DNA from: Pseudooceanicola marinus
GTDB lineage: Bacteria > Pseudomonadota > Alphaproteobacteria > Rhodobacterales > Rhodobacteraceae
DNA: 64,000 nucleotides
NCBI RefSeq assembly: GCF_002786295.1
Contig: NZ_PGTC01000009.1
Coordinates: forward strand, 310,001 to 374,000
Direction: 5' to 3'
The notes beneath the pieces were generated by a model, which was not told the origin of the DNA, did not search any database, and was given only the letters and a program-made list of their open reading frames with translations. Within the stretch, counting starts at the first letter, position 1. Every line of letters starts with the position of its first letter. The position numbers and the translations under genes were made by a program. Positions 30,579-57,712 of the stretch are shown here, one piece after another.

Positions 30579-31125
30579 TCCCCCCAAGCCCCGTGGCCAA
30601 AGGCCCTGGGCGCAGGACGATGGACCGATGCAGAACTGACCCGAACCGGCATAGCGCCGCGCCCCGGGTCCAACCTGGAAAGGATGGAAAGGACATCTCA
30701 TCTTTGGCCCGCCCGGACGGCACCCCGGGACCGGGCCTTCATACTTGCGGGAAGAGACACGGTTCCACACACCTCTTCCCGCAGGTGCGGGCGAGCCCGG
30801 CACGGCTCGCCCGCGGCTTGCGGCGGCTGACGGCACTCACACACACACCAGCCGCCGCAAGCATCCCCGCGCGCCTCGGGCCTGTGGTCCGGGGCGCGCA
30901 CCCGTTTCGGGCCCGGCCACGCGCGCAGCGCGCTGTTTCCCGACGGGTATCGACCGATGCCGATCTGAATGAGTCCCAACAGGGATGACTATAGTCCAGG
31001 ATGTGACGCGGAAAAGGTGCAGCATGCGCAACCGTGCGGTCACCCCTGCGTCGTGGGCCGTCCGGCCTTGCCATTTCCCCGCGGCTCCCGCAGCCTCGGG
31101 GCAAGCAAATCCAAGGACGCCTGCC
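30579..31125. other. Gene-free region with hairpin array
   Basis: No gene is supported between the RTX gene and the M20 hydrolase. It contains four consecutive hairpins (30746-30899) and CA-repeat tracts, then a GCGCGCAGCGCGC palindrome near 30921-30933. Confidence 0.55.
30746..30899. repeat. Array of four consecutive inverted repeats
   Basis: Arms are 30746-30756/30773-30783 (11 bp), 30787-30797/30804-30814 (11 bp), 30816-30828/30850-30862 (13 bp, loop holding a CA repeat) and 30869-30879/30889-30899 (10 of 11). The arms differ from one another, so these are four separate stems packed end to end. Confidence 0.75.
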
Positions 31126-39204: not shown

Positions 39205-40638
39205 ATGACCCCTTCCGATCCTGCCTCCCTCCTGTCCGCCTTCCGCGCTGCCTTGCCGCCGGTATCCGCGCTTGCCAAGGACCTGGTGGGGAAGGACGCG
39301 ATGGTCGAGGGCCCCTTCGGGCCGAAGCCTCTGGTCTATGCGGATTATGTCGCCTCCGGCCGGGCGCTGCGCACGCTGGAGATGTTCATGCTGGAGCGGG
39401 TGCTGCCCTTCTACGCCAACAGCCACACCGAGGCGTCCTACTGCGGCGGCGTCATGACCCGGCTGCGCAATGCCGCCCGGGCCACCATCGGCGCCCATTG
39501 CGGGGCGACGCAGGACCATGCCGTCATCTTCGCCGGCAGCGGGGCTACGGCCGGCCTCAACCGCCTGGTCAGCCTGCTGGGCGCGGACCGGGGCCGGGTG
39601 AAGGTCATCATCGGCCCCTACGAACATCATTCCAACATCCTGCCCTGGCGCGAATGCGGCGCCGAGGTCGTCGAACTGCCCGAGGCGGCCGACGGTGGGC
39701 CGGATCGCGCGGCGCTAGCCACGGCCCTGGCCGATGCGGGGGCCTATGACCGGGTGATCTGCGCCTTTTCGGCGGCCTCCAACGTCTCCGGCCTCATCGC
39801 CGACGTGGCCGGGCTGACCCGCCAGGCGAAGGCGGCAGGGGCGCTGATGGTCTGGGACTACGCCGGGGGCGGCCCCTACCTGCAGATTGACATGCAGCCC
39901 GCCGAGGGCGCGGGCATAGACGCGCTGGTCTTCTCGCCGCACAAGTTCATTGGCGGCCCGGGCGCCTCGGGCGTGCTGGTGCTGCGCCGCGACGCCGTGG
40001 TCTCCGACCGGCCCACCTGGGTCGGCGGCGGCACCGTGCGCTTCGTCTCGTCCCAGGGGCACGACTATTCCGATGCGCTGGAGGCGCGCGAGGAGGCCGG
40101 GACGCCCAACGTCGTCGGCGACATCCGCGCAGCCCTGGCGGTGATCGTGAAGGAACATATCGGTGAGGCCTTCATGACGGCGCGCAACACGACGCTGTCG
40201 GCCCGGGCCATCGCCACCTGGGACGCCGAACCGGGGGTGGAGCTTCTGGGGCTGACCGGCCCCGCGCGCCTGCCGATCCTGTCCTTCCGGATCCGCAACC
40301 CGCGCGGCGGCTACATCCACCAGCAGCTGGCGACCCGGATGCTCAGCGACCGCTACGGCATCCAGGCGCGCGGCGGCTGTGCCTGCGCGGGGCCCTATGT
40401 CCTCGACCTGCTGGGCCATGATGCCGAGGCGGTCGCGCGTATTCGCGGCGACATCCTGTCGGGCAAGGAGCTGGAGAAGCCCGGCTTCGTGCGCCTTAAC
40501 CTGTCGGTCCTGATGTCCGACGCCGAGGTGGAGTTCATCCTGCAAAGCGTCGCGGCGCTCTCGCGCGAGGCGCATGAGCTGGTCGACCTCTACGAGGCCG
40601 ATCCCGCGCGCGCGGTGTTCCGCAGCACGGCCGCCTGA
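39205..40638 (+). CDS. Class V PLP enzyme (cysteine desulfurase-like)
   Basis: The 477-residue enzyme has the cysteine-desulfurase-like motifs: YADYVASGRALRTLEMFM near the start, HHSNILPWRE, the Asp of LMVWDYAGGGPY, PLP Lys247 in FSPHKFIGGPGASGVL, and Cys392/Cys394 in RGGCACAGPYVLDLL. The CxC places it in the group of IscS/SufS-like proteins, but with extra insertions (about 60 residues beyond SufS); its true substrate is unknown. No iscU or suf genes are near. It is in the same direction as the DadA-like gene and converges with lrp. Confidence 0.82.
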   Translation: MTPSDPASLLSAFRAALPPVSALAKDLVGKDAMVEGPFGPKPLVYADYVASGRALRTLEMFMLERVLPFYANSHTEASYCGGVMTRLRNAARATIGAHCGATQDHAVIFAGSGATAGLNRLVSLLGADRGRVKVIIGPYEHHSNILPWRECGAEVVELPEAADGGPDRAALATALADAGAYDRVICAFSAASNVSGLIADVAGLTRQAKAAGALMVWDYAGGGPYLQIDMQPAEGAGIDALVFSPHKFIGGPGASGVLVLRRDAVVSDRPTWVGGGTVRFVSSQGHDYSDALEAREEAGTPNVVGDIRAALAVIVKEHIGEAFMTARNTTLSARAIATWDAEPGVELLGLTGPARLPILSFRIRNPRGGYIHQQLATRMLSDRYGIQARGGCACAGPYVLDLLGHDAEAVARIRGDILSGKELEKPGFVRLNLSVLMSDAEVEFILQSVAALSREAHELVDLYEADPARAVFRSTAA

Positions 40639-40677
40639 GGCTCCGGTCCCTGTCCCCGGCGCGGTGCCGTGCCGGGG

Positions 40678-41139
40678 TCAGATATAGTCGAGGGGCAGTT
40701 CGGTGCTGGACCGGATGGTCTCCATCGCGAACATCGAGGAGACGTCCTGGATCTCCACCTTCTCGATCAGCCGCTGGTAGACCTTGTCGTAGGTGGCGAT
40801 GTCCGGCACCACGACGCGCAGCATGTAGTCGACGTCGCCAGCCAGGCGGAAGACATCCACGATCTCGGGAATGTCGCGGGTCGCCCTGACGAAGGCGCTG
40901 GACCATTCGCGGCTGTGCTGGTTGGTGCGGATCGCCATGAAGACAGAGACGCCGACATTCAGCTTCTCCTCGTCCAGCAGGACGACGCGCCGCTTGAAAT
41001 AGCCCTGCTCCTCCAGCTTGCGGATGCGACGCCAGCAGGGGGTCGTGGTCAGGCCGATCTCCGCCGCGATCTCGGCGATCGGCATCTCGGCGTTCTTCTG
41101 GAGCAATCCGAGGATCTTCTTGTCGAAGGAATCTAGCAT
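40678..41139 (-). CDS. Lrp/AsnC family transcriptional regulator
   Basis: The 153-residue protein has an N-terminal winged helix (LDSFDKKILGLLQKNAEMPI, EIGLTTTPCWRRIRKLEEQG) and a C-terminal RAM/ligand domain (YMLRVVVPDIATYDKVYQRL). It binds an amino acid effector and usually regulates nearby amino acid genes. It lies 64 bases downstream of the bisC-like gene on the same strand, so it could be the last gene of that unit or have its own promoter, where a palindrome sits. The class V PLP gene converging on it and the DadA-like gene are other candidate targets. Confidence 0.9.
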   Translation of the reverse strand: MLDSFDKKILGLLQKNAEMPIAEIAAEIGLTTTPCWRRIRKLEEQGYFKRRVVLLDEEKLNVGVSVFMAIRTNQHSREWSSAFVRATRDIPEIVDVFRLAGDVDYMLRVVVPDIATYDKVYQRLIEKVEIQDVSSMFAMETIRSSTELPLDYI

Positions 41140-41164
41140 GGGCCTGACCTGATTGGTGTCGAGG

Positions 41165-41179
41165 GGGAATTATATTCCC
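41165..41179. promoter_or_regulatory. Palindromic operator candidate of lrp
   Basis: GGGAATTATATTCCC has perfect GGGAAT/ATTCCC arms around TAT, 25 bases before the Lrp start. The AT-rich centre is typical of an Lrp/AsnC site, so autoregulation is likely. Confidence 0.5.
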
Positions 41180-41203
41180 ATCCTGTCGGGAAGTGTAGGT
41201 GCC

Positions 41204-43456
41204 TTATGCTCCGCCGGCGCTCTGGGCCACGCCCAGATGCTCCGGCGCGGGCGCCGGTTCCAGGCGCACCCGGGCGCCGCCCGCACTGGGGCCCTGCGAC
41301 AGCTCCGAGCTGCCGCTATCGCGGGTCAGGGTGTTGGGATTGCCGCCGCAGTCGATCCAGCGCCCGTCGATCCGGCGCGGGGCGTACCAGCCGCCCGTGG
41401 GCAGCTCCACATGGCCCGGGGCCAGCCGGTTGTCGGCCTCGATCATCACCAGAACGGCCCCGCGTTCATTGCTGAGAAGGGCGGGCGCCCCGGCAATCAG
41501 GCCAGCGGCACGGATCTCGTCGGGATGCGCACGGGCAACTTCCAACCCGTCACGCCGCGCGTCCTCGGCAATCGGCGCGCCGTCGAGCTGGCTGTGCAGC
41601 CGTTGCGCCGGTTGCGGCGACAGCAGGCGCAGGGGCAGGGCGGGATCCTCGCCCGCATCGCTGACGACCACGCGCGTCAGCGGCGCGCCCAGACGGCTGT
41701 CGGCGGCGCGCAGCAGGGCCGGCATCAGCTCGATCCGTCCGCTGGGCGTGGCCAGGGGGGAGGCCTGCGGGTCGGCGCGGAAGGCCTCCAGCGGCTGGAT
41801 CACCTCCTCGGGCACGGGATCGGACAGGCGGGCATGGCCGGTGGCGCAGAAGGTGTCCCAGTCCGGCAGCTCGGGGAAGGCGGCGCAGTAGCCCGCGTAA
41901 AGTTGGGCGATCCACTCGGCCTCGCTGCGCCCCTCGTGGAAGGCCTCGGCCAGGCCAAGGTGTTCGGCGATCCGGGACAGGACGGCGTGGTCGGTTTCGA
42001 CGCCCGCGGGCGGCTCGGTCACCTTGCTGGACCGGATGATCCAGTCGTCGCGGGAGGCGGCGGCGATATCGTCGCGTTCGCTCGGCAGGGCAGAGGGGAA
42101 GACCAGATCGGCGTGCTGTGCGGTGGCGGTCCAGACGCTCTCCTGCACGATGACGGTCTCGGGGCGCCGCCAGGCGCGGGCCAGGCGGTTCAGGTCCTGG
42201 TGATGGTGGAAGGGGTTGCCACCGGCCCACCAGATCAGCCGGATGTCGGGCAGGGTCAGCGACGCGCCGTTGTAGGCGATCGTCTCGCCGGGGCGTTCCA
42301 GCATCTCGGTGATGCGGGCCACGGGGATGAAGTCGCTCACCGGGTTCGTGCCCTGCACGAACGCCGGGCCGCGCAACCGGCGCAGCGGGTTGCCGACGGA
42401 GGAGACAGCCGAAAGTCCACAGGCCAAGCCGCAGCCGGGCTGCCCGATCTGGCCCGACAGCACCGCAAGAACCAGCGCGGCCCAATAGGGTTGTTCACCG
42501 GCCACGGCGCGTTGCAGCGACCAGGCAAGGTTGATCAGGGCAGGGCCCGCGACCAGCTTGCGCGCCAGCTGCGTCAGGGTCGCGGCCGGGATCCCGGTCA
42601 GCGGTGCGGCCCAGTCCGGCGTGCGGGCCGGCCCGTCGGCCTGCCCCAGGATCAGCGCCTTCAGCGCGTCATAGCCCGTGGTCAGGCGACGCACCGCAGC
42701 CTCGTCCACCAGGCCCTCGTGGATCAGCACATGGGCCATGGCCAGCATGGCGCAGGCATCGCTGCCCGCGTGGATCGCCAGGTGATCGCCCTGCGGCGCG
42801 TCGCGGCGATCGGGCGACAGGGTCAGCATCTCGCCGCCCGCTTGCGCGAAGGCGGTCAGCCAGCCGCGCGTGCGATGCGCGCCGGTGCCCCCGGCCTCGA
42901 CCTGGGCGTTGGACAGGCGCATGCCGCCGAAGGACAGGATAAAGGGACGTTCGGCCACGATCCGGTCCCAGGTCGGGTTGAACGCGCCAGGGTCGGAATA
43001 GGCGGGGCCCACCAGATGCGGGATCAGCACCTTGGCGGTGCCGTAACTGTAGGTGTTGCGGGCCGAAACGAAGCCGCCGGCGAGGGTGAGGAAGCGTTTC
43101 AGCTGGCTTTGCGGGTGATGGAACCGCCCCGCGGAGCCCCAGCCGTAGGAGCCGCCGAAGATCGCGCCGTTGCCATGGGTCCGGCGCACCCGGTCCAGTT
43201 CGGCAGCTGCCAGTTCGCTGGCCCGTTCGATGGAAAGCGGGACGAAACTGTCAGCGCCGCGCGCCGCGCCGCCATCCCCGTCCAGCCAGCCGCGACGCGC
43301 CATGGGCTGTCGGATCCGCGTGGGGTGATCGGACAGCGCCAGGAACCCTTCGCCAAGGGGCGACGGGGCAGGGTCGTGACGGAAGGGGCGCAGGCGGGGT
43401 GTCTCTCCCGTGCGGTCGATCTCGTAGGTCCCGAAATGGCTGGCGAACAGCTCCAT
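41204..43456 (-). CDS. BisC-like molybdopterin oxidoreductase (S-/N-oxide reductase type)
   Basis: The 750-residue enzyme is of the DMSO reductase family type III: it starts without the N-terminal [4Fe-4S] Cys cluster, has the molybdenum-ligand Ser137 region ARNTYSYGTAKVLIPHLVG, molybdopterin sites (GGNPFHHHQDL, VTATAQHADLVFPSALPSER-like segment) and the C-terminal beta-barrel domain (PTGGWYAPRRIDGRW). There is no Tat signal, which fits cytoplasmic biotin/methionine sulfoxide reductases rather than periplasmic TorA/DorA. It would reduce an S- or N-oxide, taking electrons from an unidentified partner. It is the tenth gene in the train, 67 bp after the binding protein gene; ATG 43456 has CAGGAG upstream. 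Confidence 0.85.
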   Translation of the reverse strand: MELFASHFGTYEIDRTGETPRLRPFRHDPAPSPLGEGFLALSDHPTRIRQPMARRGWLDGDGGAARGADSFVPLSIERASELAAAELDRVRRTHGNGAIFGGSYGWGSAGRFHHPQSQLKRFLTLAGGFVSARNTYSYGTAKVLIPHLVGPAYSDPGAFNPTWDRIVAERPFILSFGGMRLSNAQVEAGGTGAHRTRGWLTAFAQAGGEMLTLSPDRRDAPQGDHLAIHAGSDACAMLAMAHVLIHEGLVDEAAVRRLTTGYDALKALILGQADGPARTPDWAAPLTGIPAATLTQLARKLVAGPALINLAWSLQRAVAGEQPYWAALVLAVLSGQIGQPGCGLACGLSAVSSVGNPLRRLRGPAFVQGTNPVSDFIPVARITEMLERPGETIAYNGASLTLPDIRLIWWAGGNPFHHHQDLNRLARAWRRPETVIVQESVWTATAQHADLVFPSALPSERDDIAAASRDDWIIRSSKVTEPPAGVETDHAVLSRIAEHLGLAEAFHEGRSEAEWIAQLYAGYCAAFPELPDWDTFCATGHARLSDPVPEEVIQPLEAFRADPQASPLATPSGRIELMPALLRAADSRLGAPLTRVVVSDAGEDPALPLRLLSPQPAQRLHSQLDGAPIAEDARRDGLEVARAHPDEIRAAGLIAGAPALLSNERGAVLVMIEADNRLAPGHVELPTGGWYAPRRIDGRWIDCGGNPNTLTRDSGSSELSQGPSAGGARVRLEPAPAPEHLGVAQSAGGA

Positions 43457-43523
43457 CCTGCGCTCCTGGGGAATAAAAAGACGGGCGAACAGCCGAAGCC
43501 GTCCGCCCGCAGTCGGGGAGGTC

Positions 43524-45011
43524 TTAGTCCGCCGGGGACATGTCGAAGGCACGCAGCCAGTCGTCGCCGCGACCCTCGTAGGTGACGCGGGTGGAGGCGC
43601 CGAAGGTGGCGGGCTGCGCGTAGAGGAAGACCACGGGGGCCTCTTCACACATGATCTCCGTCGCCTTCTTGTAGGCGGCCTCACGCTCTTCGGGGTCGGT
43701 GGTGGCGATGCCGGCGACCAGCTGTTCGTCGAAGGCCTCGTCGTTCCAGTAGGAGTACTGGTTGCCCGGCTTGAACAGGGTCAGCAGGCCGTCGGCGTCG
43801 ATCGTGGCCCAGGCCTGGCCCAGCAGGGACAGGCGGCCCAGGTCATGGGCGGCGCGGTACTTGTCGAGGTAGGCGCCGAATTCCATGGTCTGGATCTCGG
43901 TCTTCACGCCCACGTCGCCGAACATCTGCGCCACGGCCTGGGTGACTTCCTCGCCCTGCAGGTAGGTGGCGGCGGGCAGCTCGAACTCGATGGTCTGGCT
44001 CAGGTCGACGCCGGATTCCTCCAGCAGCTCGCGCGCGCGCTCGGGGTCGTAAGGGTAGGCTTCCAGGTCGGGGTTGTAGCCGAAGTAGTCGGGCGTCATC
44101 ACCTGGCAGTTCGACACGGTGGCCAGCCCGTCGAAGAGGGCATCGGCGATCAACTCCTTGTCGACGGCGTAGTTCAGCGCCTGGCGGAAGGCCTTGTTGT
44201 CCAGCGGGGCCTTCTCGGTGTTGAACTTGATGAAGACGGACCGGGTGCTGTCCACGGCGCCGGCGGTGGCGTTCGGGCTTTCCTCGATGCGGGCGATCTC
44301 GGAGGCGGGGACCTTGTTGATCAGGTCGACCTCACCGGCCATCAGCGCGGCGACGCGGCTGGCGGTTTCGGGGATCACGCGGAAGGTGACGCTGTCGAAC
44401 TGCGCGGCCTCGCCCCAGAAGTCGGGGTTGGGCGACAGGGTGATGTGATCGCCCGGCACGTATTCGGTCATCTGGTACTTGAAGCCCGACATGGTCTCGG
44501 TCACCGGGTCATGCTCGGACGCCCATTCGGGGGGCAGCAGCATGAACATCGACAGCTGCGCGGGCAGCGCGGGGTAGGGCGAGGAGGTGGTGATCTCGAA
44601 CTCGGTGGGGGAGATCACGTTCACGCCGTCGATCTGCGAGAACCAGGAGGAGATCCGCTTGGGGTTCTCGGCGTCGGTCACGCGGGCGATGTTCCAGGCC
44701 ACGGTTTCCGCATCCAGCGGCTCGCCATTGGCGAAGGTGGCGCCCTCGGTCAGGGTGAATTTCCAGGTGTTGTCGTCCACCGCTTCCCAGTCGGTCGCCA
44801 GCGAGGGCTGCAGCGAGTAGTCGGGCGCGCGCAGGATCAGCGTGGGGTAGATGTGCGACAGGACCGACAGGTCGAGGCCCACCGAGGCGGAGCCGTGCGG
44901 GTCCAGCGTATTGACGGCGGAGGTTTGCGCGATGGTCACGTCCATCGCGAAGGCCGGCAGGGCCATCATCGTGGCCGCGGCGGTGGTCGTCAGGAGTTTG
45001 GAGAGCGTCAT
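43524..45011 (-). CDS. Dpp/Opp-type ABC solute-binding protein (family 5)
   Basis: The 495-residue protein has a signal peptide (residues 1-22, ending MMALPAFAMD) and the SBP family 5 pattern: VTIAQTSAVNTLDPHGSASV, TLTEGATFANGEPLDAETVA, NFNTEKAPLDNKAFRQALN-like segment FIKFNTEKAPLDNKAFRQAL and a C-terminal GNQYSYWNDEAFD. It captures a peptide or peptide-like solute in the periplasm for the adjacent permease. ATG 45011 is preferred over one at 45038. It lies 40 bp after oppF and precedes the BisC-like gene. Ligand cannot be assigned. Confidence 0.88.
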   Translation of the reverse strand: MTLSKLLTTTAAATMMALPAFAMDVTIAQTSAVNTLDPHGSASVGLDLSVLSHIYPTLILRAPDYSLQPSLATDWEAVDDNTWKFTLTEGATFANGEPLDAETVAWNIARVTDAENPKRISSWFSQIDGVNVISPTEFEITTSSPYPALPAQLSMFMLLPPEWASEHDPVTETMSGFKYQMTEYVPGDHITLSPNPDFWGEAAQFDSVTFRVIPETASRVAALMAGEVDLINKVPASEIARIEESPNATAGAVDSTRSVFIKFNTEKAPLDNKAFRQALNYAVDKELIADALFDGLATVSNCQVMTPDYFGYNPDLEAYPYDPERARELLEESGVDLSQTIEFELPAATYLQGEEVTQAVAQMFGDVGVKTEIQTMEFGAYLDKYRAAHDLGRLSLLGQAWATIDADGLLTLFKPGNQYSYWNDEAFDEQLVAGIATTDPEEREAAYKKATEIMCEEAPVVFLYAQPATFGASTRVTYEGRGDDWLRAFDMSPAD

Positions 45012-45051
45012 GGTGATTTTCCCTGTGGTGATGGTCATGGCCGTTTGGGCC

Positions 45052-45959
<908 letters not shown>

Positions 45960-45963
<4 letters not shown>

Positions 45964-46973
45964 GGCGTCTGCTCCTTCTCGGACTGGGCGGCCAGCAGGG
46001 CGGGCAGATCGTACCAGGCGGCGACCTTGTGGCCGGGCATGTTGCCCACGTCGCGCAGTGGCGGCACCTCGCGGTGACAGCGTTCGGTGGCGAAGGGGTT
46101 GCGCGGCGCGAAGGGGTCGCCCGGGGGCGGGTTCGACATGTCGGGCGGGCTGCCGGGGATCTGGTAAAGGCGCCGCTGCGTCCGCGCGCCCTCGTCCGGC
46201 AGGGAGTTCAGCAGCCCCCAGGTATAGGCCGAGCGCGGGTCGTGAAAGACCGGGCGCACGGGGCCGCGTTCCATGATGCGCCCGCCGTACATGACCTGGA
46301 TCGTGTCTGCGAGTTCTGCCACCACGCCCATGTCATGGGTGATCCAGATGACGGTGGTGCCGAAGTCGTGCTTCAGCTGGCGCACCAGGTCCAGGATCTG
46401 CGCCTGCACGGTCACGTCCAGCGCGGTCGTCGCCTCGTCGGCGATCAGCAGGCGCGGGTTGCAGGCCATGCCGATGGCGATCATCACGCGCTGGCGCATG
46501 CCCCCCGAGAACTCGTGCGGGTACTGCGACAGCCGCGCCTCGGGGTGGGGGATGCCGACGATGTCCAGCAGTTCCACCATGCGGGCCTTCAGGGCGCGCC
46601 CCGTCAGGTTGGTGTGACGGGTCAGCACCTCCTTCAGCTGGCGCCCGACGGTCAGCACCGGGTTCAGCGATGACATCGGATCCTGGAAGACCATGCCGAT
46701 CTCGCCGCCGCGGATGCTGCGCAGGTCGCGGTCGGAAAGGGCCATCAGGTTGCGGCCGTCGAACCAGGCCTCGCCCGACACGATGCGCCCGGGCGGGCAG
46801 GGCAGCAGGCCCAGCAGGGCCAGGATATGCACGGATTTCCCCGAGCCGCTTTCCCCCACGACGCCCAGCGTCTCACCGGCCTCGACACTGTAGTTCAGGT
46901 CGTTGACCGCGTGAACGACCCCGCCCGGGGTGTCGAACTCGACCGTGAGGTTCTTGATCTCGAGAAGTGCCAC
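45960..46973 (-). CDS. Dpp/Opp ABC transporter ATPase (OppD-like)
   Basis: The 337-residue ATPase has Walker A GESGSGKSVHILALLG, MVFQDPMSSLNPVLTV, signature FSGGMRQRVMIAIGMA and Walker B LLIADEATTALDVTVQAQIL, then the C-terminal oligopeptide domain (HDPRSAYTWGLLNSLPDEG). It starts one base after the M24 protein's stop codon and overlaps the OppF-like start. With OppF-like it energises the DppB/DppC-like permeases. Confidence 0.92.
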
Positions 46974-46974
46974 G

Positions 46975-48168
46975 TCAGACCTCGATGTAGCCGCCGCACG
47001 ATTTCGTCAGGAACTCGTGGCCGTCCTCGGTGATCAGGATGGTATCGCTGATCTGAGTGGCCACGCCCTGATCGGGGACGCGCAGGTTGGGTTCCAGGGT
47101 GAACAGCATTCCCGGCTCCAGCACCACGTCGGTCTTGCCGTCGAGCGAGAAATGCTCATGCGCGCCGATGCCGATGGTGTGACCGATGCGGCCGGGGATG
47201 TTGGCGTCGTAGCCGGCCTTGATCAGGCCCGCCTTGGTGATGTTGTAAAGCTCGGCCAGCGGCGTGCCGGGTTTCATCACCGGGGTGATTTGCTCGCGGA
47301 TCTCCAGGATGGTGTCCAGCGCGCGGCGGCGCTTTTCGGGCAGGGGACCCATGGCGACGGTGCGTTCGTTCTCCGCATGGATGCCGTTGGCGACGGCCCA
47401 GATGAAGATCGCCACCGTCTCGCCCGGCAGCGGCGTGCGGGAGATCGAGTTGTCGCAGTTGCGGAACATCCGGTCGCCGGACAGGACCCAGGTGGCCAGG
47501 CCGTTGACCATGCCGCCTTCCAACCCGCCGAAATCAGCGACCTCGATGTCGTCGGGCAGGGCGTTGGTCCAGTGCTTGTTCATCGCGATCAGGGACGCGG
47601 TATGCGCCTCCCGCTCGGTCCCGCCGTCGGCCAGGGCGGCAATGGCCGCGTCCATGCCGCGGTCCGCCAGATCGGCGGCCACGCGGGCCATGGCGATCTC
47701 GTCGCTGTCCTTGATCAGGCGGCAGCGGTCGATCAGCTTCGAGCTGTCCTCGAACTTTGCCTCCGGAACCAGCGCCTGCACCTGGCTCCAGCGGGCCATG
47801 GGAGTGCTGTCGGCTTCCATGCCGATCACGGCGTTGGCCAGGCCCTTCTCGGTCAGGATCTTCTGCAGGGCCTCGGGCCAGGTCGGACCCATGGTCTTCG
47901 TCGTCGACCAGACGCCATAGGCGCGGGTGTCCTCGACGAAGCCCTCGTCGCGCCCGTGGGCATCGCGCAGGGCATGCACCAGCATGGTCGGCGCGCCCTC
48001 AGCGGGCAGGATCATGACCACCGGATGCGAGTAGAGCACCGGGTTGAAACCCGACATGTAGAAGGTGTGCTCCGGCTTGAACGTGACCAGAGCGTCGATG
48101 CCCTTCTCGGCCATCGCGGCCTTCAGGCGGGCGATGCGGGGGCGGGGGCTGTTGGTGTCGAGGCTCAT
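46975..48168 (-). CDS. M24-fold creatinase-like hydrolase lacking metal ligands
   Basis: The 397-residue protein has the N-terminal creatinase domain (MAEKGIDALVTFKPEHTFYM) and C-terminal pita-bread domain (CDNSISRTPLPGETVAIFIW, GRIGHTIGIGAHEHFS, LFTLEPNLRV). Of the five M24 metal ligands only His330 and Glu359 are kept: Asp to Trp257, Asp to Glu266, Glu to Ser375. This loss is also seen in creatinase and ectoine hydrolase, which cleave C-N bonds without metal. The residue at the creatinase catalytic His position appears to be Asp239. It probably acts in the cytoplasm on the solute imported by this operon. Its start overlaps the permease stop by 4 bp and its stop is one base from oppD. Confidence 0.82.
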   Translation of the reverse strand: MSLDTNSPRPRIARLKAAMAEKGIDALVTFKPEHTFYMSGFNPVLYSHPVVMILPAEGAPTMLVHALRDAHGRDEGFVEDTRAYGVWSTTKTMGPTWPEALQKILTEKGLANAVIGMEADSTPMARWSQVQALVPEAKFEDSSKLIDRCRLIKDSDEIAMARVAADLADRGMDAAIAALADGGTEREAHTASLIAMNKHWTNALPDDIEVADFGGLEGGMVNGLATWVLSGDRMFRNCDNSISRTPLPGETVAIFIWAVANGIHAENERTVAMGPLPEKRRRALDTILEIREQITPVMKPGTPLAELYNITKAGLIKAGYDANIPGRIGHTIGIGAHEHFSLDGKTDVVLEPGMLFTLEPNLRVPDQGVATQISDTILITEDGHEFLTKSCGGYIEV

Positions 48169-49022
48169 TTGGCGCTCCGTGTCTTGGGGTCGAAGTAGTC
48201 GCGCAGCCAGTCACCGAAGAGGTTCACCGACAGCACGGTCAGCACGATGGCGAGACCGGGGAAGGTCACGGTCCACCAGGCGGAGGAGAGGTAGACGCGA
48301 CCATCGGCCAGCATCCGGCCCCAGGACGGGGTCGGGGGCTGCACGCCCAGGCCGAGAAAGGACAGCGCGGCGTCCATGATGATGACGCGGGCCAGCTCCA
48401 GCGTGCCGACGACCAAGGCGGGCGTCAGCACGTTGGGCAGGATGTGCAGGAACATGATGCGCGCGGTCGAGGCGCCGATGGCGCGGGCGGACTGGACGAA
48501 CTCACGTTCGCGCAGGGACAGCACCTGGGCGCGGATGATCCGGGCGTAGCGGATCCAGGACGTCAGGGCGAGGACCAGCACCACGTTGCGGATCGACGGG
48601 CCGAGGGCCGCCACCACTAGCAAGGCCAGCAGCATCAGCGGGATCGCCAGCTGGATGTCGACCAGGCGCATCAGCAGCCGGTCGATGAAGCCGCCCTTGT
48701 AGCCGGCCAGGATGCCCAGCACCGTGCCCACGATGCCGCCCAGCACGACGGCGGTGGAGGCCACCATCAGCGTCATGCGGGAACCGTGGATCAGCCGCGA
48801 GAGGATGTCGCGGCCCACCTCGTCAGTGCCCAGGGGGTGCGCCCCGGGGGAGAAGAGCCCCTCCCAGGTCGGGCCGGCGAGGCGCGCGCGCAGGTCGCCG
48901 CGCGTCGGGTCGGGCAGCTCCAGCAGCGGCGCCAGCAGCGCCAGGGCGACGATCACGACCAGCAGGACGAAGCCGAACAGGCCGGCCCTGGAGCGCGAGA
49001 GATCCTTGAGGAAATGTGTCAT
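48165..49022 (-). CDS. Dpp/Opp-type ABC permease (DppC-like)
   Basis: The 285-residue membrane protein has about six helices, the DppC N-terminal domain (RSRAGLFGFVLLVVIVALAL), HPLGTDEVGRDILSRLIHGS and the ATPase-contact EAA loop VQSARAIGASTARIMFLHIL, ending in a conserved WLRDYFDPKTR. Its partner is the DppB-like permease 12 bases upstream. The stop overlaps the M24 gene start by 4 bp. Confidence 0.92.
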   Translation of the reverse strand: MTHFLKDLSRSRAGLFGFVLLVVIVALALLAPLLELPDPTRGDLRARLAGPTWEGLFSPGAHPLGTDEVGRDILSRLIHGSRMTLMVASTAVVLGGIVGTVLGILAGYKGGFIDRLLMRLVDIQLAIPLMLLALLVVAALGPSIRNVVLVLALTSWIRYARIIRAQVLSLREREFVQSARAIGASTARIMFLHILPNVLTPALVVGTLELARVIIMDAALSFLGLGVQPPTPSWGRMLADGRVYLSSAWWTVTFPGLAIVLTVLSVNLFGDWLRDYFDPKTRSAK

Positions 49023-49034
49023 CTGTCCGTCTCC

Positions 49035-49955
49035 TCAGCGGTTCGCGCGGATGCGGGGGTCAAGCACGCCGTAGAGCAGGTCGACCAGGAAGTTGATGAG
49101 GACGAAGATCGCGGCGATCAGCGTGATGCCGGCCTGGATGACGGGGAAATCCTTGGCCTCGATCGCCTGGATGATCAGCCGCCCGATGCCCGGCCAGGAG
49201 AAGACCGTTTCGGTCACCACCGAGCCGCCCAGCAATTCGCCGGTCAGGATCGCCGTCATGGTCACCACCGGGATCAGCGCGTTGCGTGCCACGTGCCAGA
49301 AGAAGACCGTGTGGCGCAGCAGCCCCTTCGCCTTGGCGGTGCGGATGTAGTCCTCCTTCAGGATCTCCAGCATCGAGGACCGCAGCAGCCGCGCGATGGA
49401 GGCGGAGACGAAGACCGCCAGGGTGAAGGCCGGCAGCACCAGATGCGCCAGGGTGCCGTAGCCGCCCGTGGGCAGCCAGCCCAAGTTCACCGCGAAGAAG
49501 AGGATCAGCATGATCCCCAGCCAGAAGACCGGCGTCGCCTGGCCCAGCAGGGCCACGGCCATGACCACCAGTTCGATCGCGCGGCCGCGCTTCAGCGCCG
49601 CGATGGAGCCGGCGACGGTGCCGATGACCAGGCCCATGGCAATGGCCGTCAGCGCCAGCTGTGCGGTGGCGGGCAGACGTTCCAGTACCACCTGCATGGC
49701 GTCGCGGCCATGCTGGAAGGAGACGCCGAAATCGCCCTGTACGGCGTTCAGCAGGAACTGTCCGTATTGCACCAGCATCGGCTGATCGAGGCCCAGCTGG
49801 CCGCGCAGGGCCTGGATGTCGGCGTCCGAGGCGCCGATGGGCAGCAGCAGGGCCGCCGGGTCGCCCAGGATGCGGGTGACGAAGAAGACGATCGTCACCA
49901 CACCCCAGATGGCCAGAAGGGATTCGCCCAGGCGGCGAAGGATGAAGCCGGTCAT
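49035..49955 (-). CDS. Dpp/Opp-type ABC permease (DppB-like)
   Basis: The 306-residue membrane protein has the DppB N-terminus FILRRLGESLLAIWGVVTIV, the periplasmic segment ALRGQLGLDQPMLVQYGQFL, an EAA loop DYIRTAKAKGLLRHTVFFWH and C-terminal VLINFLVDLLYGVLDPRIR. It forms the membrane channel with the DppC-like protein. Its ATG overlaps the hydrolase stop by 4 bp. Confidence 0.92.
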   Translation of the reverse strand: MTGFILRRLGESLLAIWGVVTIVFFVTRILGDPAALLLPIGASDADIQALRGQLGLDQPMLVQYGQFLLNAVQGDFGVSFQHGRDAMQVVLERLPATAQLALTAIAMGLVIGTVAGSIAALKRGRAIELVVMAVALLGQATPVFWLGIMLILFFAVNLGWLPTGGYGTLAHLVLPAFTLAVFVSASIARLLRSSMLEILKEDYIRTAKAKGLLRHTVFFWHVARNALIPVVTMTAILTGELLGGSVVTETVFSWPGIGRLIIQAIEAKDFPVIQAGITLIAAIFVLINFLVDLLYGVLDPRIRANR

Positions 49956-50815
49956 GGCGCCTCGCCTTCCAGGAAGGCCCGGATGCGTTCCAGCACCAGG
50001 GCATTCTGTTCATGGTGGCACGAATGGTTCGCCTCCGGCACTTCCCAGCCGGTGGCATTGGGGCAGAGCTCGGCGATCAGCCGGGTCTGGCTGGGCGGGC
50101 AGATCCAGTCCTTCTCGCCGCAGAAGGCGAAGGTGGGCACGGTCATGGTCTTCAGCGCGTCCCGCAGGTCATGTTCCTTCTCGCGGAACATCTCGTTGTG
50201 GGTTTCCGCATGCAGGTGCATCGTGCGCGTGCGTTCCAGTGCCGCGTTCGGGTCGAAGACCTCGTAGTAGAGCGGCTGCAGCGCGAACCAGATCAGCCGG
50301 AATTCGGTATCGTCGGTGATCGTGGTGCCGAACAGCTTGTCGATCATTTCCGGGCTGGCCGAGGGCACCTTGTCGATGCGCGCCTTGAAGGTCTCGATCG
50401 CCTCCGCCTCGTGGTGGTGGCTGGGGGCGGTGCCGCGCAGGATCAGGTGGGTCAGATGCTGCTGGTAGTGCACCGCAAAGGTCAGCGCGATCATCCCGCC
50501 GAAGCTGCCGCCCTGCAGGATGATCTTGCCATCCTCGCCGCAGAAGTGGCGGCGGAAGGCATCCACGTCATCGGCATACTGGCGGAAGTTCATCGGGTAG
50601 GCGATTTCCGACAGGCCGCAGCCGCGCTGGTCGAAGGCGATGACGCGGTAGCGGTCGGCCAGGGCCGCATAGGCGGTCCATTCGCCGATGTGGTCGCCCG
50701 CGCCGCGTCCGCCGTGCAGCAGGATGATCGTCTCGGCGTTCTCCTCGCCCGCGATGCGGTAGCGGAAGCGGCAGCCGTTCAGGGTGATGTAGTCTTCGCG
50801 ACCCGAGAGGCTCAT
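49952..50815 (-). CDS. Alpha/beta hydrolase (proline-iminopeptidase-like)
   Basis: The 287-residue hydrolase has the oxyanion motif LLHGGRGAGDHIGEW, FDQRGCGLSE as in prolyl iminopeptidases, the nucleophile Ser104 in QGGSFGGMIALT, Asp236 in FCGEKDWICP and His264 in EANHSCHH, a full triad. It has no signal peptide. In this operon it could split an ester made by the neighbouring flavin monooxygenase, or remove a terminal residue from a peptide-like substrate. The ATG at 50815 overlaps the monooxygenase stop by 4 bp. Confidence 0.85.
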   Translation of the reverse strand: MSLSGREDYITLNGCRFRYRIAGEENAETIILLHGGRGAGDHIGEWTAYAALADRYRVIAFDQRGCGLSEIAYPMNFRQYADDVDAFRRHFCGEDGKIILQGGSFGGMIALTFAVHYQQHLTHLILRGTAPSHHHEAEAIETFKARIDKVPSASPEMIDKLFGTTITDDTEFRLIWFALQPLYYEVFDPNAALERTRTMHLHAETHNEMFREKEHDLRDALKTMTVPTFAFCGEKDWICPPSQTRLIAELCPNATGWEVPEANHSCHHEQNALVLERIRAFLEGEAP

Positions 50816-52269
50816 TTCGCGGTCTCCATGAGGGTAGGGGTGCTGTCGACCCATTCGTCGCCCTGCAGTTCGGGCACGTCATAGGCCTGCAGCCCCTGAT
50901 AGTGGGTTTCGACATCGGCGCTGAACATCTCGGCGACGATGCCGCGCATCAGCCGGTCGGCCCCGGCGGAGATGGCGGGAATGTCGCCCGACAGCTTGCC
51001 GTGGCTCAGCATGGCCGCGTCGTTGAAGCAGTGGATGCGCGCCAGCATCGGACAGCTGCCCGGCTCCTTCTCCAGGAACTCGTAGGCGTCGCCCAGGTAG
51101 GGCGCATCGGTCATGAAGGGGATGGGCTTGCCCATCGAGGGATCATAGACGCCGTCCTTCCAGGTCTTGATGTAGGGGGCGAAGGCGCTGAACTCGTCCC
51201 GACCGGTGAAATCGTTGCGGAAACCGGTGGCGGCGATGACGAAATCACTCTCGAAATCGGCATAGGGGGTCTTCACCACGATGTGGTCGCCGGCCTCCTG
51301 CACGTCCTCGACCGGGCAGCCGAGGAAGGTGCGGGCGTTCGGGTGTTCCGTGACCCGCAGGGTGGAGCTGCGCGGCGGCGGCACCTGCTGGCTGTTGACG
51401 TAGTCGTTGAACCGGTAATTCCAGGCGTCGGGCAGGTAGCGCATGCCGTGCACCACGCCCTGGCTGCCGATGCCGGTCATCTTGTTGACCCGCGGCATCT
51501 CCTTGCGCCGGATCAGCATGTCGAGCTGGGCGGCGCCCGCCTCCAGCGCCGTGGCGGCATTGTCCATGGCCGAGGCGCCGGCGCCGATCACGATGACCCG
51601 CTTGTCCTTCAACGCGGCAAAGTCGATGTCGTCGGCGCTGTGGGCCCAGAACCGGCGATCGACATCCGACAGGAAGCCGGGCACGGCGCCGCCGCCCAGG
51701 CCCGACCGGCCGGTGGCCAGCACCAGGTGGCGGCAGTACTCGGTGCGCGTGCCCTTGGCGTCGGTCAGGGTCACGGCGATCAGGTTGTCGCCTGCGTCCT
51801 GCACGTCGCTGACACGGGTTTCATTCACCACCGGCAGGTTCAGCACGTCGCGATACCAGCGCAGGTAGTCCATCCACATGCCCTTCGGGATCTTGCCGAG
51901 CGCGTCGAAGGCGTCCTCGCCCCATTGCGCCTCGTACCAGGCGCGGAAGGTCAGGGCGGGCAGGCCCAGGCAGGGCCCGGCCAGCGTCTTGGGGGAGCGC
52001 AGGGTTTTCATCCGTGCGAAGGTGTCCCAGGGGCCTTCGAGGCCCTTGGGCGCGGCATCGTAAAGCACGATGTTGTCCACCCCCGACAGCGTCAGCCGAG
52101 CGGCCCCCGCCAGCCCGCACATGCCGGCGCCGACGAAGATCACGTCGCGCACGCGCTGGCCGGCATGCTCCCGCGCCGGCACCCAGGACTTGGAGGGCAG
52201 CTCCAGCAGGGTGAGGTCCTTGGCGAGGCGGGTTTCGAGGGCTGAAAGGCCGCTGCGTGTGTCAGTCAT
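50812..52269 (-). CDS. Flavin-containing monooxygenase (FMO-like)
   Basis: The 485-residue flavoprotein has the FAD fold VIFVGAGMCGLAGAARLTLS, the NADPH-binding fold VIVIGAGASAMDNAATALEA, ATGRSGLGG and C-terminal FVIAATGFRNDFTGRDEF. The FMO fingerprint FxGxxxHSxxY appears as RRFWAHSADDIDF, with Gly replaced by Ala. It is therefore an FMO-like enzyme that hydroxylates N or S atoms or inserts oxygen at a carbonyl. It is the second gene of the train, overlapping lysR by 8 bp. Substrate is unknown. Confidence 0.85.
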   Translation of the reverse strand: MTDTRSGLSALETRLAKDLTLLELPSKSWVPAREHAGQRVRDVIFVGAGMCGLAGAARLTLSGVDNIVLYDAAPKGLEGPWDTFARMKTLRSPKTLAGPCLGLPALTFRAWYEAQWGEDAFDALGKIPKGMWMDYLRWYRDVLNLPVVNETRVSDVQDAGDNLIAVTLTDAKGTRTEYCRHLVLATGRSGLGGGAVPGFLSDVDRRFWAHSADDIDFAALKDKRVIVIGAGASAMDNAATALEAGAAQLDMLIRRKEMPRVNKMTGIGSQGVVHGMRYLPDAWNYRFNDYVNSQQVPPPRSSTLRVTEHPNARTFLGCPVEDVQEAGDHIVVKTPYADFESDFVIAATGFRNDFTGRDEFSAFAPYIKTWKDGVYDPSMGKPIPFMTDAPYLGDAYEFLEKEPGSCPMLARIHCFNDAAMLSHGKLSGDIPAISAGADRLMRGIVAEMFSADVETHYQGLQAYDVPELQGDEWVDSTPTLMETAK

Positions 52270-53212
52270 GGTCAGTCTCTGATTTGGGAGAGGGCGTGCC
52301 GTCGATGCGGCGGACCTGGGGGATCAGGTCGAACAGGGCCGCTTCGCACAGGTCGAAGATGTCCTGCGTCGCCCGGGCGGCGTTGCCCCCGGCGGCGACG
52401 AAGAAACCGAAGGTGAAATCCACCTGTTCGACCAGCGGGCGCAGGATGACCCCGCTGGGGCAGGTGCCGTAGGCGGTCACCGGTTCGACGATGGCGGTCG
52501 CGCCGGTCAGCCGGGCGAACTGCAGCGCGGAGACCGAGGAATTGGCCCGCATGGCCCGGGCGGGGTGCACGTTCGCGGCTTCCAGCGCCTGGCGGATCCG
52601 GCCCTGCAGGCGGGTCTGGTCCAGCATGGTCACCACGGTGTCGGTGGCGACCTGCGCCAGGGACACCGGCTGGCCTTCGGGAAATTCGGCGGCGCGGCTT
52701 TCGGGCAGGGCCGCGACTAGGGGCGCAGCATAGACACGTTCGGCGGTGATGCCCGGCACGTCCAGCGGCAGGGAGGCAAAGCCGATCCGGGCGTTGCCGC
52801 TCAGCAGGTCCTGGGCGACCGCATTGGGCGCGGCCTGCATCAGGCGCACCTCCGTCGGGCGGTCGCTTTCCGGCCAGCGGGCCAGCGCGTGCGGCACCAG
52901 CCCGGTGCCAAGCGCATAGGTGGCCGAGATCGCCAGCGGCTGTTCCGTGCCCGCGGCCCGCGCCAGCGTGCGGGCGCGCAGATCCTCGAAGAGCGACAGC
53001 AGGCGGCGCGCCTCTTCCTCGAAGGCCACGCCCTCGGCGGTCAGCTGGATCCGGCGTCCGGCCCGTTCGACCAGGGGAAATCCGAGGCTCTCTTCCAGGT
53101 CCTTCAGGCAGCGGGTGACCGAGGGTTGCGACCGGCCGAGCATATCGGCCGCCAGGGTGACGGAGCCGGTCTCGGCGACTTTGAGGAAGGTGGCGAGGTC
53201 TTTGCGGTTCAT
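52262..53212 (-). CDS. LysR family regulator (head of operon)
   Basis: The 316-residue protein has the LysR helix-turn-helix (LATFLKVAETGSVTLAADML, SQPSVTRCLKDLEESLGFPL) and the substrate-binding domain (ALGTGLVPHALARWPE, LPLDVPGITAERVY). It overlaps the monooxygenase gene by 8 bp and is probably cotranscribed with the whole train, regulating it and itself. No Shine-Dalgarno sequence precedes the ATG; a palindrome abuts it, so translation may be leaderless. Confidence 0.88.
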   Translation of the reverse strand: MNRKDLATFLKVAETGSVTLAADMLGRSQPSVTRCLKDLEESLGFPLVERAGRRIQLTAEGVAFEEEARRLLSLFEDLRARTLARAAGTEQPLAISATYALGTGLVPHALARWPESDRPTEVRLMQAAPNAVAQDLLSGNARIGFASLPLDVPGITAERVYAAPLVAALPESRAAEFPEGQPVSLAQVATDTVVTMLDQTRLQGRIRQALEAANVHPARAMRANSSVSALQFARLTGATAIVEPVTAYGTCPSGVILRPLVEQVDFTFGFFVAAGGNAARATQDIFDLCEAALFDLIPQVRRIDGTPSPKSETDHD

Positions 53213-53225
53213 GAATCTAAGATTC
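53213..53225. promoter_or_regulatory. GAATC-N3-GATTC palindrome touching the lysR start codon
   Basis: The arms GAATC and GATTC flank TAA and end at the ATG. It lies where a ribosome site should be, so it may be an autoregulatory site near the promoter of a leaderless transcript. Confidence 0.4.
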
Positions 53226-53496
53226 GTGAATTAATCCGCCCAATCAATTCAAAAATGACATGAATCAAGTTGCGCCCCCAGATTTCACGGAAAACGCCGT
53301 CTTATGATGCTTGAATGGGCATCATGGAGGTCTCATTATTTCACATTGAGGGGTCTGGCTTCGGTCCGATTCCCCGGCGTCCGGCGTGGTCTTCGCTGGT
53401 TTCGGGCCCAGGCCTGCCCCGACAAACGACAGCGCGCGCCTCCGGAGGAGACGCGCGGTCCGTCGGTGCAAGGGGGCCGTTGGCCTGCGTGGCCGG
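53226..53496. other. Intergenic region between CMD gene and lysR
   Basis: About 270 bases with no supported gene, AT-richer near 53226-53290. It likely carries the promoter of the lysR-led train, including a TTCA-N9-TGAA inverted repeat at 53250-53266. Confidence 0.4.
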
Positions 53497-54060
53497 TCAG
53501 TCCGAATGGCCCAGCGGGTGCATCAGCCGGTTCGCCCAGCCGAAGATCGCGATCGAATGGATCAGGTCCTGGATCTCCGCATCCTCCATGCCCTGCGCGC
53601 GCAGCGCCTCGACATGGGACTGCTCCGCCGTCGGCGGCGTGGCGGTCAGGGCTTCGGCGAAATCCATGATCGCCGCATCGCGCGGGTTCAGCGCATCGCG
53701 GCGCCCGGCATAAAGGGCGGAGGTCGTGGCGGTGCCGGTCAGCCGGGCATGCTGGCGGGCATGCACGTTGGCGCAGTACTTGCAGCCATTGATCAGCGAG
53801 GCGCCAAGCGCGCCCAGCTCGCGGTCGGCGCGGTTCAGCCCGCCCTCGGCATACATGATGGCGTTGAACAGCACGGTGCGGGCCACGTAGCTGTCCGGGT
53901 CATGGGCCAGGGTGCGCACATAGGGCGACACCTTCTTCGCCGAGGGCGTGACCTTCATCGCCTCCAGCTGTCGGGGCGTTGCGTCCTCGATCTCCACCGG
54001 GGGCAGGTGCGGCGTCCATGTCAGGGGCTTCAGGGTGACCTGGGGGATGGTATCGGTCAT
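53497..54060 (-). CDS. AhpD/CMD-fold peroxidase-related protein with CxxC
   Basis: The 187-residue protein has the AhpD motif with Glu81, Cys93, Cys96 and His100 (LINGCKYCANVHARQH), spaced as in the alkyl hydroperoxidase AhpD where Glu lies 12 before the first Cys. It probably reduces peroxides or transfers disulfides. It resembles the Avi_7169-type alkylhydroperoxidase domain proteins that occur in pairs with CMD proteins beside peptide ABC transporters and flavin monooxygenases. It overlaps the partner gene by 4 bp. Confidence 0.85.
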   Translation of the reverse strand: MTDTIPQVTLKPLTWTPHLPPVEIEDATPRQLEAMKVTPSAKKVSPYVRTLAHDPDSYVARTVLFNAIMYAEGGLNRADRELGALGASLINGCKYCANVHARQHARLTGTATTSALYAGRRDALNPRDAAIMDFAEALTATPPTAEQSHVEALRAQGMEDAEIQDLIHSIAIFGWANRLMHPLGHSD

Positions 54061-54539
54061 GCGCGGGTTTCCTTCAGCAGGCCGAGGCCGTGGACGACGC
54101 GGATCTGGTAGCAGGCGAAGGCCAGCAGTTCCGACAGGGCGATGATCTGCGGCACGCTGAACCCCGCCTCCTGCAGGGCGCTCAGATGCTCGGGCCCGGC
54201 CTTGGCCGGGGTTTCCGCGATTAGGTCGGCGTGGCGCGCCAGGGCGGCCAGGGCGAAATCCTCGGGCATCTCGCCATCCGCCAAGGCGGCTAGGGCCGGA
54301 TCGGCGGGGCGGGGGTAGCCTTCGGTCAGGCGATCATGACCGGCCCCGGCAACGACGCGGCGGGCGATCGCCCTGCGCAGCTCGGGCGACAGGTCCAGCG
54401 TCTCTTCGGGGTCAAGCACGGCGGCGCGGCAGGCCTCTGCGCCGGAAACGAACTCGGGGCGCAGGGCCCGCAGCGCGTGCAGGGGGGAGCCGGGCGCGAT
54501 GCCGAGGGCCTGGTCGATTGCGTCGGGAACAGCGGTCAT
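54057..54539 (-). CDS. CMD-fold protein without CxxC, partner of the AhpD-like gene
   Basis: The 160-residue helical protein belongs to the CMD domain group of the Avi_7170 type (LTEGYPRPADPALAALADG, SVPQIIALSELLAFACYQ). The CxxC pair is missing: only Cys143 remains near the active-site position, followed by IRVVHG. It may form a mixed complex with the CxxC-containing neighbour, whose gene it overlaps by 4 bp. It diverges from a LysR gene 105 bases away. Confidence 0.78.
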   Translation of the reverse strand: MTAVPDAIDQALGIAPGSPLHALRALRPEFVSGAEACRAAVLDPEETLDLSPELRRAIARRVVAGAGHDRLTEGYPRPADPALAALADGEMPEDFALAALARHADLIAETPAKAGPEHLSALQEAGFSVPQIIALSELLAFACYQIRVVHGLGLLKETRA

Positions 54540-54643
54540 GAGGGGTCTTTCTGCATGGCTCGATCCATGGGAGCGTGTTAACTATGCTGAAAACGCATGG
54601 TGCGCCTCGCATCATATCTAAATAAGATCATTCGGGGGTGAGT

Positions 54644-57455: not shown

Positions 57456-57712
57456 CTGCAAGGTCCTGTCGACGTAGGCCGCCGGTGGGACCGGCGGAGA
57501 TGTGGGGCGCAATGCCAAAGACCCCGGCCGGGATGGTCGGGGGTATAGGGAGGTTCTAGCGGTTCAGCCCGGCTCGACAAGATGATCTGTGGTGTCATCT
57601 TTGGGGACGGGGGCGCCAAAGCGCAGGCCATCGGCGCCAGTGGTGCCACAAGGCTTTCCAACGGGGGCTGGGCGGGGTAAGCAGCGCGGTCCTTGGAAGG
57701 GGTGGGAAGATC

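Follow-up and report, generated by a model that had tools for sequence, protein, structure and literature searches.

A gene cluster of Pseudooceanicola marinus is tentatively interpreted here, with somewhat less than even confidence, as a LysR-controlled modular system for the catabolism or salvage of a peptide-like organosulfur amino acid, likeliest an S-substituted cysteine conjugate or S-oxide. The cluster is located in a stretch of 64,000 nucleotides (positions 310,001 to 374,000 of contig NZ_PGTC01000009.1, hereafter the window), for which a prediction made from the letters alone had described a ten-gene train at 41204-53212. We reproduced the ten genes on the minus strand, including their order and families, gaps of at most 67 bp and overlaps of 4 or 8 bp, but the ten-gene boundary turned out to be too narrow: CMD1 and CMD2 (53497-54539), the closest partners of the flavoprotein monooxygenase (FMO), had been missed and belong to the unit. 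An AsnC and a SufS-like gene (39205-41139) are probably part of it, too. The FMO-CMD core, the modular use of this core and its link to cysteine-sulfur enzymes are new. The genes are:

52262-53212, minus strand: LysR-type regulator with which the train begins (PF03466/PF00126), adjoining FMO in train-bearing relatives
50812-52269, minus strand: FMO, a FAD/NADPH class-B flavoprotein monooxygenase (PF13738, PF13434)
49952-50815, minus strand: alpha/beta hydrolase, enol-lactonase/iminopeptidase-like (PF00561)
49035-49955, minus strand: DppB-type permease (PF00528/PF19300)
48165-49022, minus strand: DppC-type permease (PF00528/PF12911)
46975-48168, minus strand: M24, a DoeA/creatinase-like pita-bread hydrolase with three of five metal ligands changed (PF00557/PF01321)
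45960-46973, minus strand: OppD-type ATPase (PF00005/PF08352)
45052-45963, minus strand: OppF-type ATPase (PF00005/PF08352)
43524-45038, minus strand: family-5 solute-binding protein, SBP (PF00496; 5u4o, 189 bits)
41204-43456, minus strand: BisC-like S/N-oxide reductase (TIGR00509 relative)
53497-54060, minus strand: CMD1, AhpD-like peroxidase-related protein with CxxC (TIGR01926, 164.8 bits, cutoff 81.8)
54057-54539, minus strand: CMD2, companion CMD-domain protein (TIGR04029, 78.5 bits, cutoff 100.75; no CxxC by eye)
40678-41139, minus strand: Lrp/AsnC regulator, probable accessory, 64 bp downstream of BisC
39205-40638, plus strand: class-V PLP enzyme of SufS/CsdA fold, probable accessory (5b7s, 94 bits)

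CMD1 was found near FMO in 36 of the 43 mapped loci in which FMO is at least 45% identical to that of the window, and one of the 120 homologues among the matches listed (P0029) was a CMD1-FMO fusion. An interpretation of CMD1 and CMD2 as unrelated neighbours was rejected, since both track FMO and directly follow BisC in Frigidibacter and Falsirhodobacter. CMD1 qualifies as an AhpD-like protein of TIGR01926 by its score above the cutoff and its CxxC motif (CKYC, by eye), while the scores of CMD1 for TIGR04030 (144.8 bits, cutoff 233.15) and of CMD2 for TIGR04029 did not support membership in these families. The FAD motif GxGxxG of FMO was present in 28 of 28 aligned relatives; the motif FxGxxxHxxx[YF], which we take to be that of canonical flavin-containing monooxygenases, occurred in none of the 28, and FMO does not qualify as such an enzyme. 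The protein is predicted to have the two dinucleotide-binding domains of the class-B flavoprotein monooxygenase fold (FMO/N-hydroxylase superfamily), and the nearest folds of its AlphaFold model (pLDDT 81.2), as ranked by a re-examination of Foldseek's top 1000, were PvdA/KtzI and small FMOs. P. endophyticus has a second FMO (40%) and CMD1 (43%) about 7 kb apart (G014:C46:189358 and 197542), which suggests that it carries a paralogous FMO-CMD locus.

The ten genes were found in unchanged order, with protein identities of 43-100%, in P. marinus (L077/L125), P. endophyticus (L078/L126) and Stappia (L127), and further full trains in the same identity range were present in Pacificibacter (L079/L129), Frigidibacter (L080/L130) and Falsirhodobacter (L131); for the FMO-DppB interval of Labrenzia (L128), the search gave no hydrolase. 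Because ten genes in like order recur in several genera, the train is not due to chance. At the 13 mapped M24 loci (at least 43% identity: the window, L077, L078, L079, L080, L121, L123, L127, L128, L131, L132, L133 and L162), M24 was accompanied by a Dpp-type importer in 12, by CMD1 in 11, and by FMO and by BisC in 10 each. Departures from the full set included L121 (M24 without other train parts), L132 from Gluconacetobacter (no BisC, hydrolase match in two pieces) and L123 (DppC and BisC matches split across frames). On a plasmid of Sinorhizobium medicae, M24 stood alone within 12 kb. The 8.9-kb contig of Streptomyces milbemycinicus (L133) was without FMO and BisC; in this actinobacterium, the order is SBP-DppBC-M24-OppDF-CMD2-CMD1, with a C45/acyltransferase-like gene (by eye) ahead of it. 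In L162 (genome G642), importer, M24, hydrolase and BisC were present, the sole such case without FMO and CMD. About 3 kb past BisC of this genome (L162/L163), a luciferase-like flavin enzyme (by eye), possibly a substitute, is encoded on the opposite strand. In six more plasmid records, according to the search coordinates alone, the FMO and M24 matches share a strand at a distance of about 1.85 kb. M24 of this type was rare, with two of 398 phylum-sample and two of 385 class-sample genomes (E 1e-70), and FMO was commoner, with 37 of 394 family and 28 of 385 class genomes (E 1e-60), the own genome being counted in each case.

Beyond the window, 51 distinct FMO loci were mapped (40 genome-search stretches, 7 plasmid records and 4 named contigs, after 4 duplicates had been dropped), in stretches of about 20-29 kb that usually covered 4-5 kb upstream and 13-14 kb downstream of FMO and were shorter at contig ends. 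CMD1 was present in 12 of the 13 loci with an FMO identity of at least 60%, in 24 of the 30 loci with 45-60% and in two of the eight loci below 45%; L084, scored as being without CMD1, has it just beyond the end of the stretch. M24 and BisC were each found in eight loci of the first group, and M24 in one and BisC in none of the second, such that most FMO-CMD loci are without both. The importers next to FMO-CMD were of at least three kinds, namely Dpp (the type of the window), polar amino-acid (Pantoea, Thioclava, Rhizobium) and PotD-like, the latter occurring together with an opine-dehydrogenase-like gene in 18 of 19 loci of one FMO clade; on one FMO plasmid, a family-5 binding protein was the only importer part. 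Three importer types are represented among the FMO-CMD or M24 modules that have an octopine/nopaline-dehydrogenase-like gene at their side (L086, 6971-8071; L119, 17875-18951; L162, 7737-8921). Placing the M24 label on the FMO tree of 52 rows takes four changes, at least three of them by supported branches, and modules have therefore been exchanged or lost repeatedly. The proposed coupling of a peptide-type importer to an oxidation step, hydrolases and an S/N-oxide reductase thus holds as a conserved co-occurrence, with the full set in several genera, but only in part as one welded unit, given this modularity and the hairpin described below. The counter-case named in the original prediction, a genome with FMO, M24 and BisC apart, is partly realized in G642, Gluconacetobacter and the S. 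medicae plasmid.

A Cds1-like cysteine desulfhydrase or a SufS-like enzyme was encoded near FMO, within the fetched stretch, in 24 of the 43 loci with at least 45% FMO identity, and the kinds of cysteine-sulfur enzyme replace each other between FMO-CMD loci. In Pacificibacter and Labrenzia, RidA and Cds1-like genes of the same strand separate CMD1 from LysR, in Frigidibacter a Cds1-like gene directly follows CMD1, and in L104 one is near CMD1. The window, P. marinus and Falsirhodobacter have AsnC and the SufS-like enzyme in place of Cds1; AsnC occupies the same position in P. marinus and follows CMD1 in Falsirhodobacter (L131). SufS-like genes are neighbours of further FMO-CMD loci as well. 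Two Rhizobium plasmids combine a SufS-like enzyme with a Blh-like dioxygenase and a TauE-family exporter. Among ten hand-picked genomes, Cds1 was found in the three previously known to have it and was single-copy in each, so that none of these has a Cds1 outside the FMO-CMD locus. Cysteine desulfhydrases release aminoacrylate, which is removed by RidA; a RidA beside Cds1 fits a sulfur substrate, since it would clear this product. In the SufS-like protein of the window, a Cys is seen by eye within a GGCACAGP motif. The cysteine-desulfurating neighbours, which the original prediction had missed, favour an organosulfur amino acid over betaines or guanidino compounds.

In M24, F255 and E266 replace two Asp and S374 replaces the last Glu of the five residues (D, D, H, E, E) that we take to be the metal ligands of the prolidase 1pv9. 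With three of five ligands changed, M24 was rejected as a prolidase or true M24 peptidase, and the earlier label 'creatinase-like' is strengthened. Among the matches listed, E266 and S374 were present in 120 of 120 homologues and Asp at position 255 in two. The best PDB relative of M24 was the ectoine hydrolase DoeA (6twk, 92 bits), with a weak match to the DoeA family NF038259 (104.1 bits, cutoff 575). For the alpha/beta hydrolase, TIGR02427 (91.0 bits, cutoff 255.85) was the best NCBIfam match, followed by TIGR01250 (85.1 bits, also below cutoff), and the proline iminopeptidase 1xrq (61 bits) was the best PDB relative. BisC matched TIGR00509 over residues 6-734 with 589.7 bits, below the cutoff of 1017.55, and is therefore a relative and no curated member of that family. 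It aligned to the Rhodobacter dimethyl sulfoxide (DMSO) reductase with 421 bits and kept the residues corresponding to Y114/W116/S147 of 1dms, presumably the Mo-ligand Ser and the Tyr/Trp of the S-oxide pocket. Other BisC-like copies in 198 sampled family genomes were at most 47% identical, which suggests, as judged from identity, a subgroup of its own.

The conserved gene set, the CMD1-FMO partnership and fusion, the cysteine-sulfur neighbours, the BisC pocket residues and RidA are the grounds for our interpretation of the cluster. The route that we infer, from its substrate to the order of its steps and every reaction, would begin with SBP-DppBC-OppDF taking up an S-substituted cysteine in peptide-like form, or the S-oxide of it. 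BisC would reduce the S-oxide to the thioether, FMO would oxygenate it with FAD and NADPH and thereby open the C-S linkage, and the AhpD-like pair CMD1/CMD2 might handle an intermediate with oxidised sulfur or a peroxide. Acyl/aminoacyl and C-N bonded parts would be taken off by the alpha/beta hydrolase and by M24, the creatinase-like protein. Cysteine would thus be released, from which a Cds1-like or SufS-like enzyme, where linked, could take off the sulfur.

Several results weigh against this route. The 24 of 43 sulfur-gene loci are a raw, uncontrolled count, 19 of the 43 had no cysteine-sulfur gene in the fetched stretch, and P. endophyticus and Stappia have the full train yet belong to these 19. 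The Cds1-like proteins (570.7 bits to NF052478, cutoff 600) and the Blh-like dioxygenase (545.7 bits, cutoff 625) scored below their cutoffs, and the SufS-like gene was far from FMO in four of the seven genomes having it (G249, G014, G353 and G183), for which reason it was rejected as a universal part. Within flanks of 1.5 kb, CMD1 was found at 24 of 64 FMO loci and at none of the 28 class-sample loci (L049-L076); three class-sample loci with 46-48% FMO identity, for which only short flanks were fetched, are outside the 43. Nineteen of the mapped loci form one FMO clade and hence are not independent, and the whole genome of G642 contained no FMO or CMD1 at E 1e-20. FMO had no sequence relative in the PDB at E 0.001, and its model appears equally near to N-hydroxylases and FMOs. 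Finally, BisC would undo the product of an S-oxygenating FMO; there seems to be no point in both acting on one molecule, except if BisC is there for S-oxides taken up from outside.

The strongest rival, which we consider unlikely, is that an amine is N-hydroxylated: FMO would be an N-hydroxylating monooxygenase of the SidA/PvdA/putrescine-hydroxylase type that modifies an imported amino compound at its amino group, the CMD proteins would treat hydroxylamine or peroxide, and the cysteine enzymes would reflect a need for thiol and not the product. This explanation stays in place because the FMO model resembles PvdA-type folds and the predicted fold is compatible with it. We regard as rather improbable that the cluster is a general scavenging operon for peptides and amino acids without a dedicated pathway, in which FMO, BisC and CMD serve the redox repair of oxidised residues such as methionine sulfoxide. 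A Dpp-type importer with two hydrolases, one of them iminopeptidase-like, a BisC-family reductase and AhpD-like proteins would suit such an operon, but two prolidase ligand sites are replaced in all 120 M24 homologues among the matches listed, the joining of FMO-CMD to at least three kinds of importer shows no tie to peptides, and a dedicated regulator with a conserved palindrome speaks for a specific function.

That M24 opens a substrate of guanidino or amidine type, resembling creatine or ectoine, which the other enzymes trim, seems improbable to us. M24 is nearest to DoeA and its ligand pattern is unlike that of a metallopeptidase, but the similarity to DoeA and NF038259 is low, most FMO-CMD loci are without M24, and the sulfur genes would be left without a role. 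The same role is missing in a Baeyer-Villiger-like route, which we think very improbable, where the product of FMO would be an ester or lactone, to be opened by the enol-lactonase-like hydrolase, and a CMD-family protein would take part as in the PcaC/PcaD pair. This route would account for TIGR02427 (PcaD) as best NCBIfam match of the hydrolase and for the adjacent CMD genes; CMD1, however, matches AhpD-type peroxidase-related proteins and not PcaC.

With regard to transcription, the nine gene borders of the train span from an 8-bp overlap (LysR/FMO) to a 67-bp gap (SBP/BisC). FMO/hydrolase overlap by 4 bp (43 bp if the first hydrolase ATG, at 50854, is used in place of the start at 50815, which was picked by eye), as do hydrolase/DppB, DppC/M24 and OppD/OppF; DppB/DppC, M24/OppD and OppF/SBP are separated by 12, 1 and 13 bp, respectively. 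The start of BisC is the ATG at 43456, a longer GTG open reading frame being unnecessary. The Dpp/Opp/Nik ABC importer is complete, with PF00496, two PF00528 and two PF00005 plus PF08352 matches above the cutoffs. Further features in and next to the train are:

43481-43510, minus strand: hairpin resembling an intrinsic terminator, in the SBP-BisC gap (13 pairs, 4-nt loop, T-rich tail)
53228-53250, no strand: candidate LysR operator GAATTGATT-N6-ATTAATTC, a palindrome directly upstream of LysR
53304-53325, no strand: second palindrome, ATGATGC-N8-GCATCAT, sole exact match within the window
54638-55540, plus strand: second LysR regulator, divergent from CMD2, also in L077, L078, L079 and L127

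The hairpin in the SBP-BisC gap, followed by CTTTTTATT, had been overlooked. The 65-nt hairpin segment folds with -27 kcal/mol (z -2.24), a value equalled by 7 of 200 shuffles. Five terminator-like sites were found in the region versus 5.3 expected, and their number is therefore not above chance; the SBP-BisC site has the most pairs. A hairpin was located 3' of SBP in six of seven relatives with SBP before BisC (L125-L130), two of which, L125 and L126, are alone in having a clear T-tract after it. The seventh, Falsirhodobacter (L131), has an SBP stop that overlaps with the ATG of BisC, and in Neorhizobium galegae (L123), BisC follows OppF and not SBP. Since a hairpin with a T-tract sits between SBP and BisC, BisC is perhaps only partly co-transcribed; the hairpin is a possible attenuator and no proof of separate transcripts. 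A single welded transcript is weakened by it, the counterpoints being the Falsirhodobacter overlap and a consensus scan of 40500-55000, which revealed no sigma-70-like site (1.2 expected; other promoter types were outside the scan). For the candidate operator, a motif derived from the alignment itself, no match was expected in shuffles at up to two mismatches, and looser versions were present upstream of LysR in five relatives of the clade of the window, and absent from L130 and L131. The second palindrome occurred three times in the window at up to three mismatches versus 3.1 expected, with similar sequences in L126 and L127 and a weaker one in L129.

On the far side of the SufS-like gene, a D-amino acid dehydrogenase-like FAD enzyme is encoded directly upstream (37747-38985, plus strand; 97% in P. 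marinus L077). A SulP-like anion transporter gene (55557-57518, minus strand, by eye) adjoins the second LysR gene and consists of two neighbouring open reading frames in different frames (55557-56660 and 56691-57518), apparently due to a frameshift or sequence error. A few kb from the cluster is an M20-type amidohydrolase-like open reading frame (30985-32313, plus strand, by eye), M20 being the fold type of the deacylases of Bacillus cysteine salvage routes. A gene at 27114-30542 (plus strand) encodes an acidic protein of 1142 aa with a glycosidase-like part and C-terminal RTX-like glycine-rich repeats, by eye.

Our results suggest an undescribed route to recover or degrade modified sulfur amino acids. 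A wider claim, which we put forward as doubtful, is that C-S opening of S-substituted cysteines by a class-B FAD/NADPH monooxygenase and an AhpD-like pair is a widespread, undescribed modular route, an independent counterpart of the luciferase-type CmoJ/YxeK routes. Different bacteria would join it to importers of at least three families and to cysteine-desulfurating enzymes that can stand in for each other, and the window would hold the version for peptide-like conjugates, in which a creatinase-like hydrolase and an S-oxide reductase of the cytoplasm take part. A literature search, with most subscription journals outside its reach, found no paper on the FMO-CMD set. If the function proposed for the cluster is right, a recurrent unnamed flavin gene pair of marine and plant-associated bacteria would gain a testable job: it would recycle modified cysteines or render them harmless, a side of the organic sulfur cycle of which little is known; oxidative cysteine dealkylation would have one more enzyme solution, and the travelling of creatinase-like and DMSO-reductase-like proteins with a peptide importer would be explained.

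Among known systems, the Rhodobacter DMSO reductase/BisC resembles the BisC of the window in its full-length alignment and in the aligned Mo-ligand Ser and pocket Tyr/Trp, and differs from it by the low identity to sampled copies mentioned above and by the export signal, of which none was seen by eye in our protein. M24 shares with DoeA/creatinase the pita-bread fold and the loss of metallopeptidase ligands, albeit at low similarity. SBP, CMD2 and CMD1 match TIGR04028, TIGR04029 and TIGR04030 (KPN_01854, Avi_7170 and Avi_7169), all below the curated cutoffs; these families presumably form a cassette with a luciferase-like monooxygenase, which in the window is replaced by FMO. Bacillus S-alkylcysteine salvage, which we take to have an ABC importer and the gene names CmoO/CmoJ and ytm/ytn, relies on CmoJ, presumably of luciferase-like fold, whereas FMO is a two-Rossmann FAD/NADPH enzyme; neither a luciferase-like flavin monooxygenase nor an N-acetyltransferase Pfam match was found among the ten train proteins. 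Unlike the CmoO/CmoJ route, the window has the AhpD-like pair, BisC and the creatinase-like protein, and its monooxygenase and hydrolases are of other families than those of the Bacillus scm/yxe operon. The CmoO/CmoJ route comprises N-acetylation, sulfoxidation, C-S cleavage to sulfenic acid and aldehyde, reduction and deacetylation, CmoJ being a homologue of YxeK and DszA (PMC10863075); flavin oxygenation of a cysteine thioether, reduction of a sulfenic acid and a cysteine-releasing hydrolase are thus what it would have in common with the route proposed here (PMC10863075). The S-(2-succino)cysteine operon scm/yxe shares importer, monooxygenase, deacylase and cysteine as product, and its critical step is swapped for unrelated enzymes between loci (PMC9706529). 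That these Bacillus flavin routes follow a like logic is a further reason why we favour the salvage of an organosulfur amino acid as the function of the cluster.

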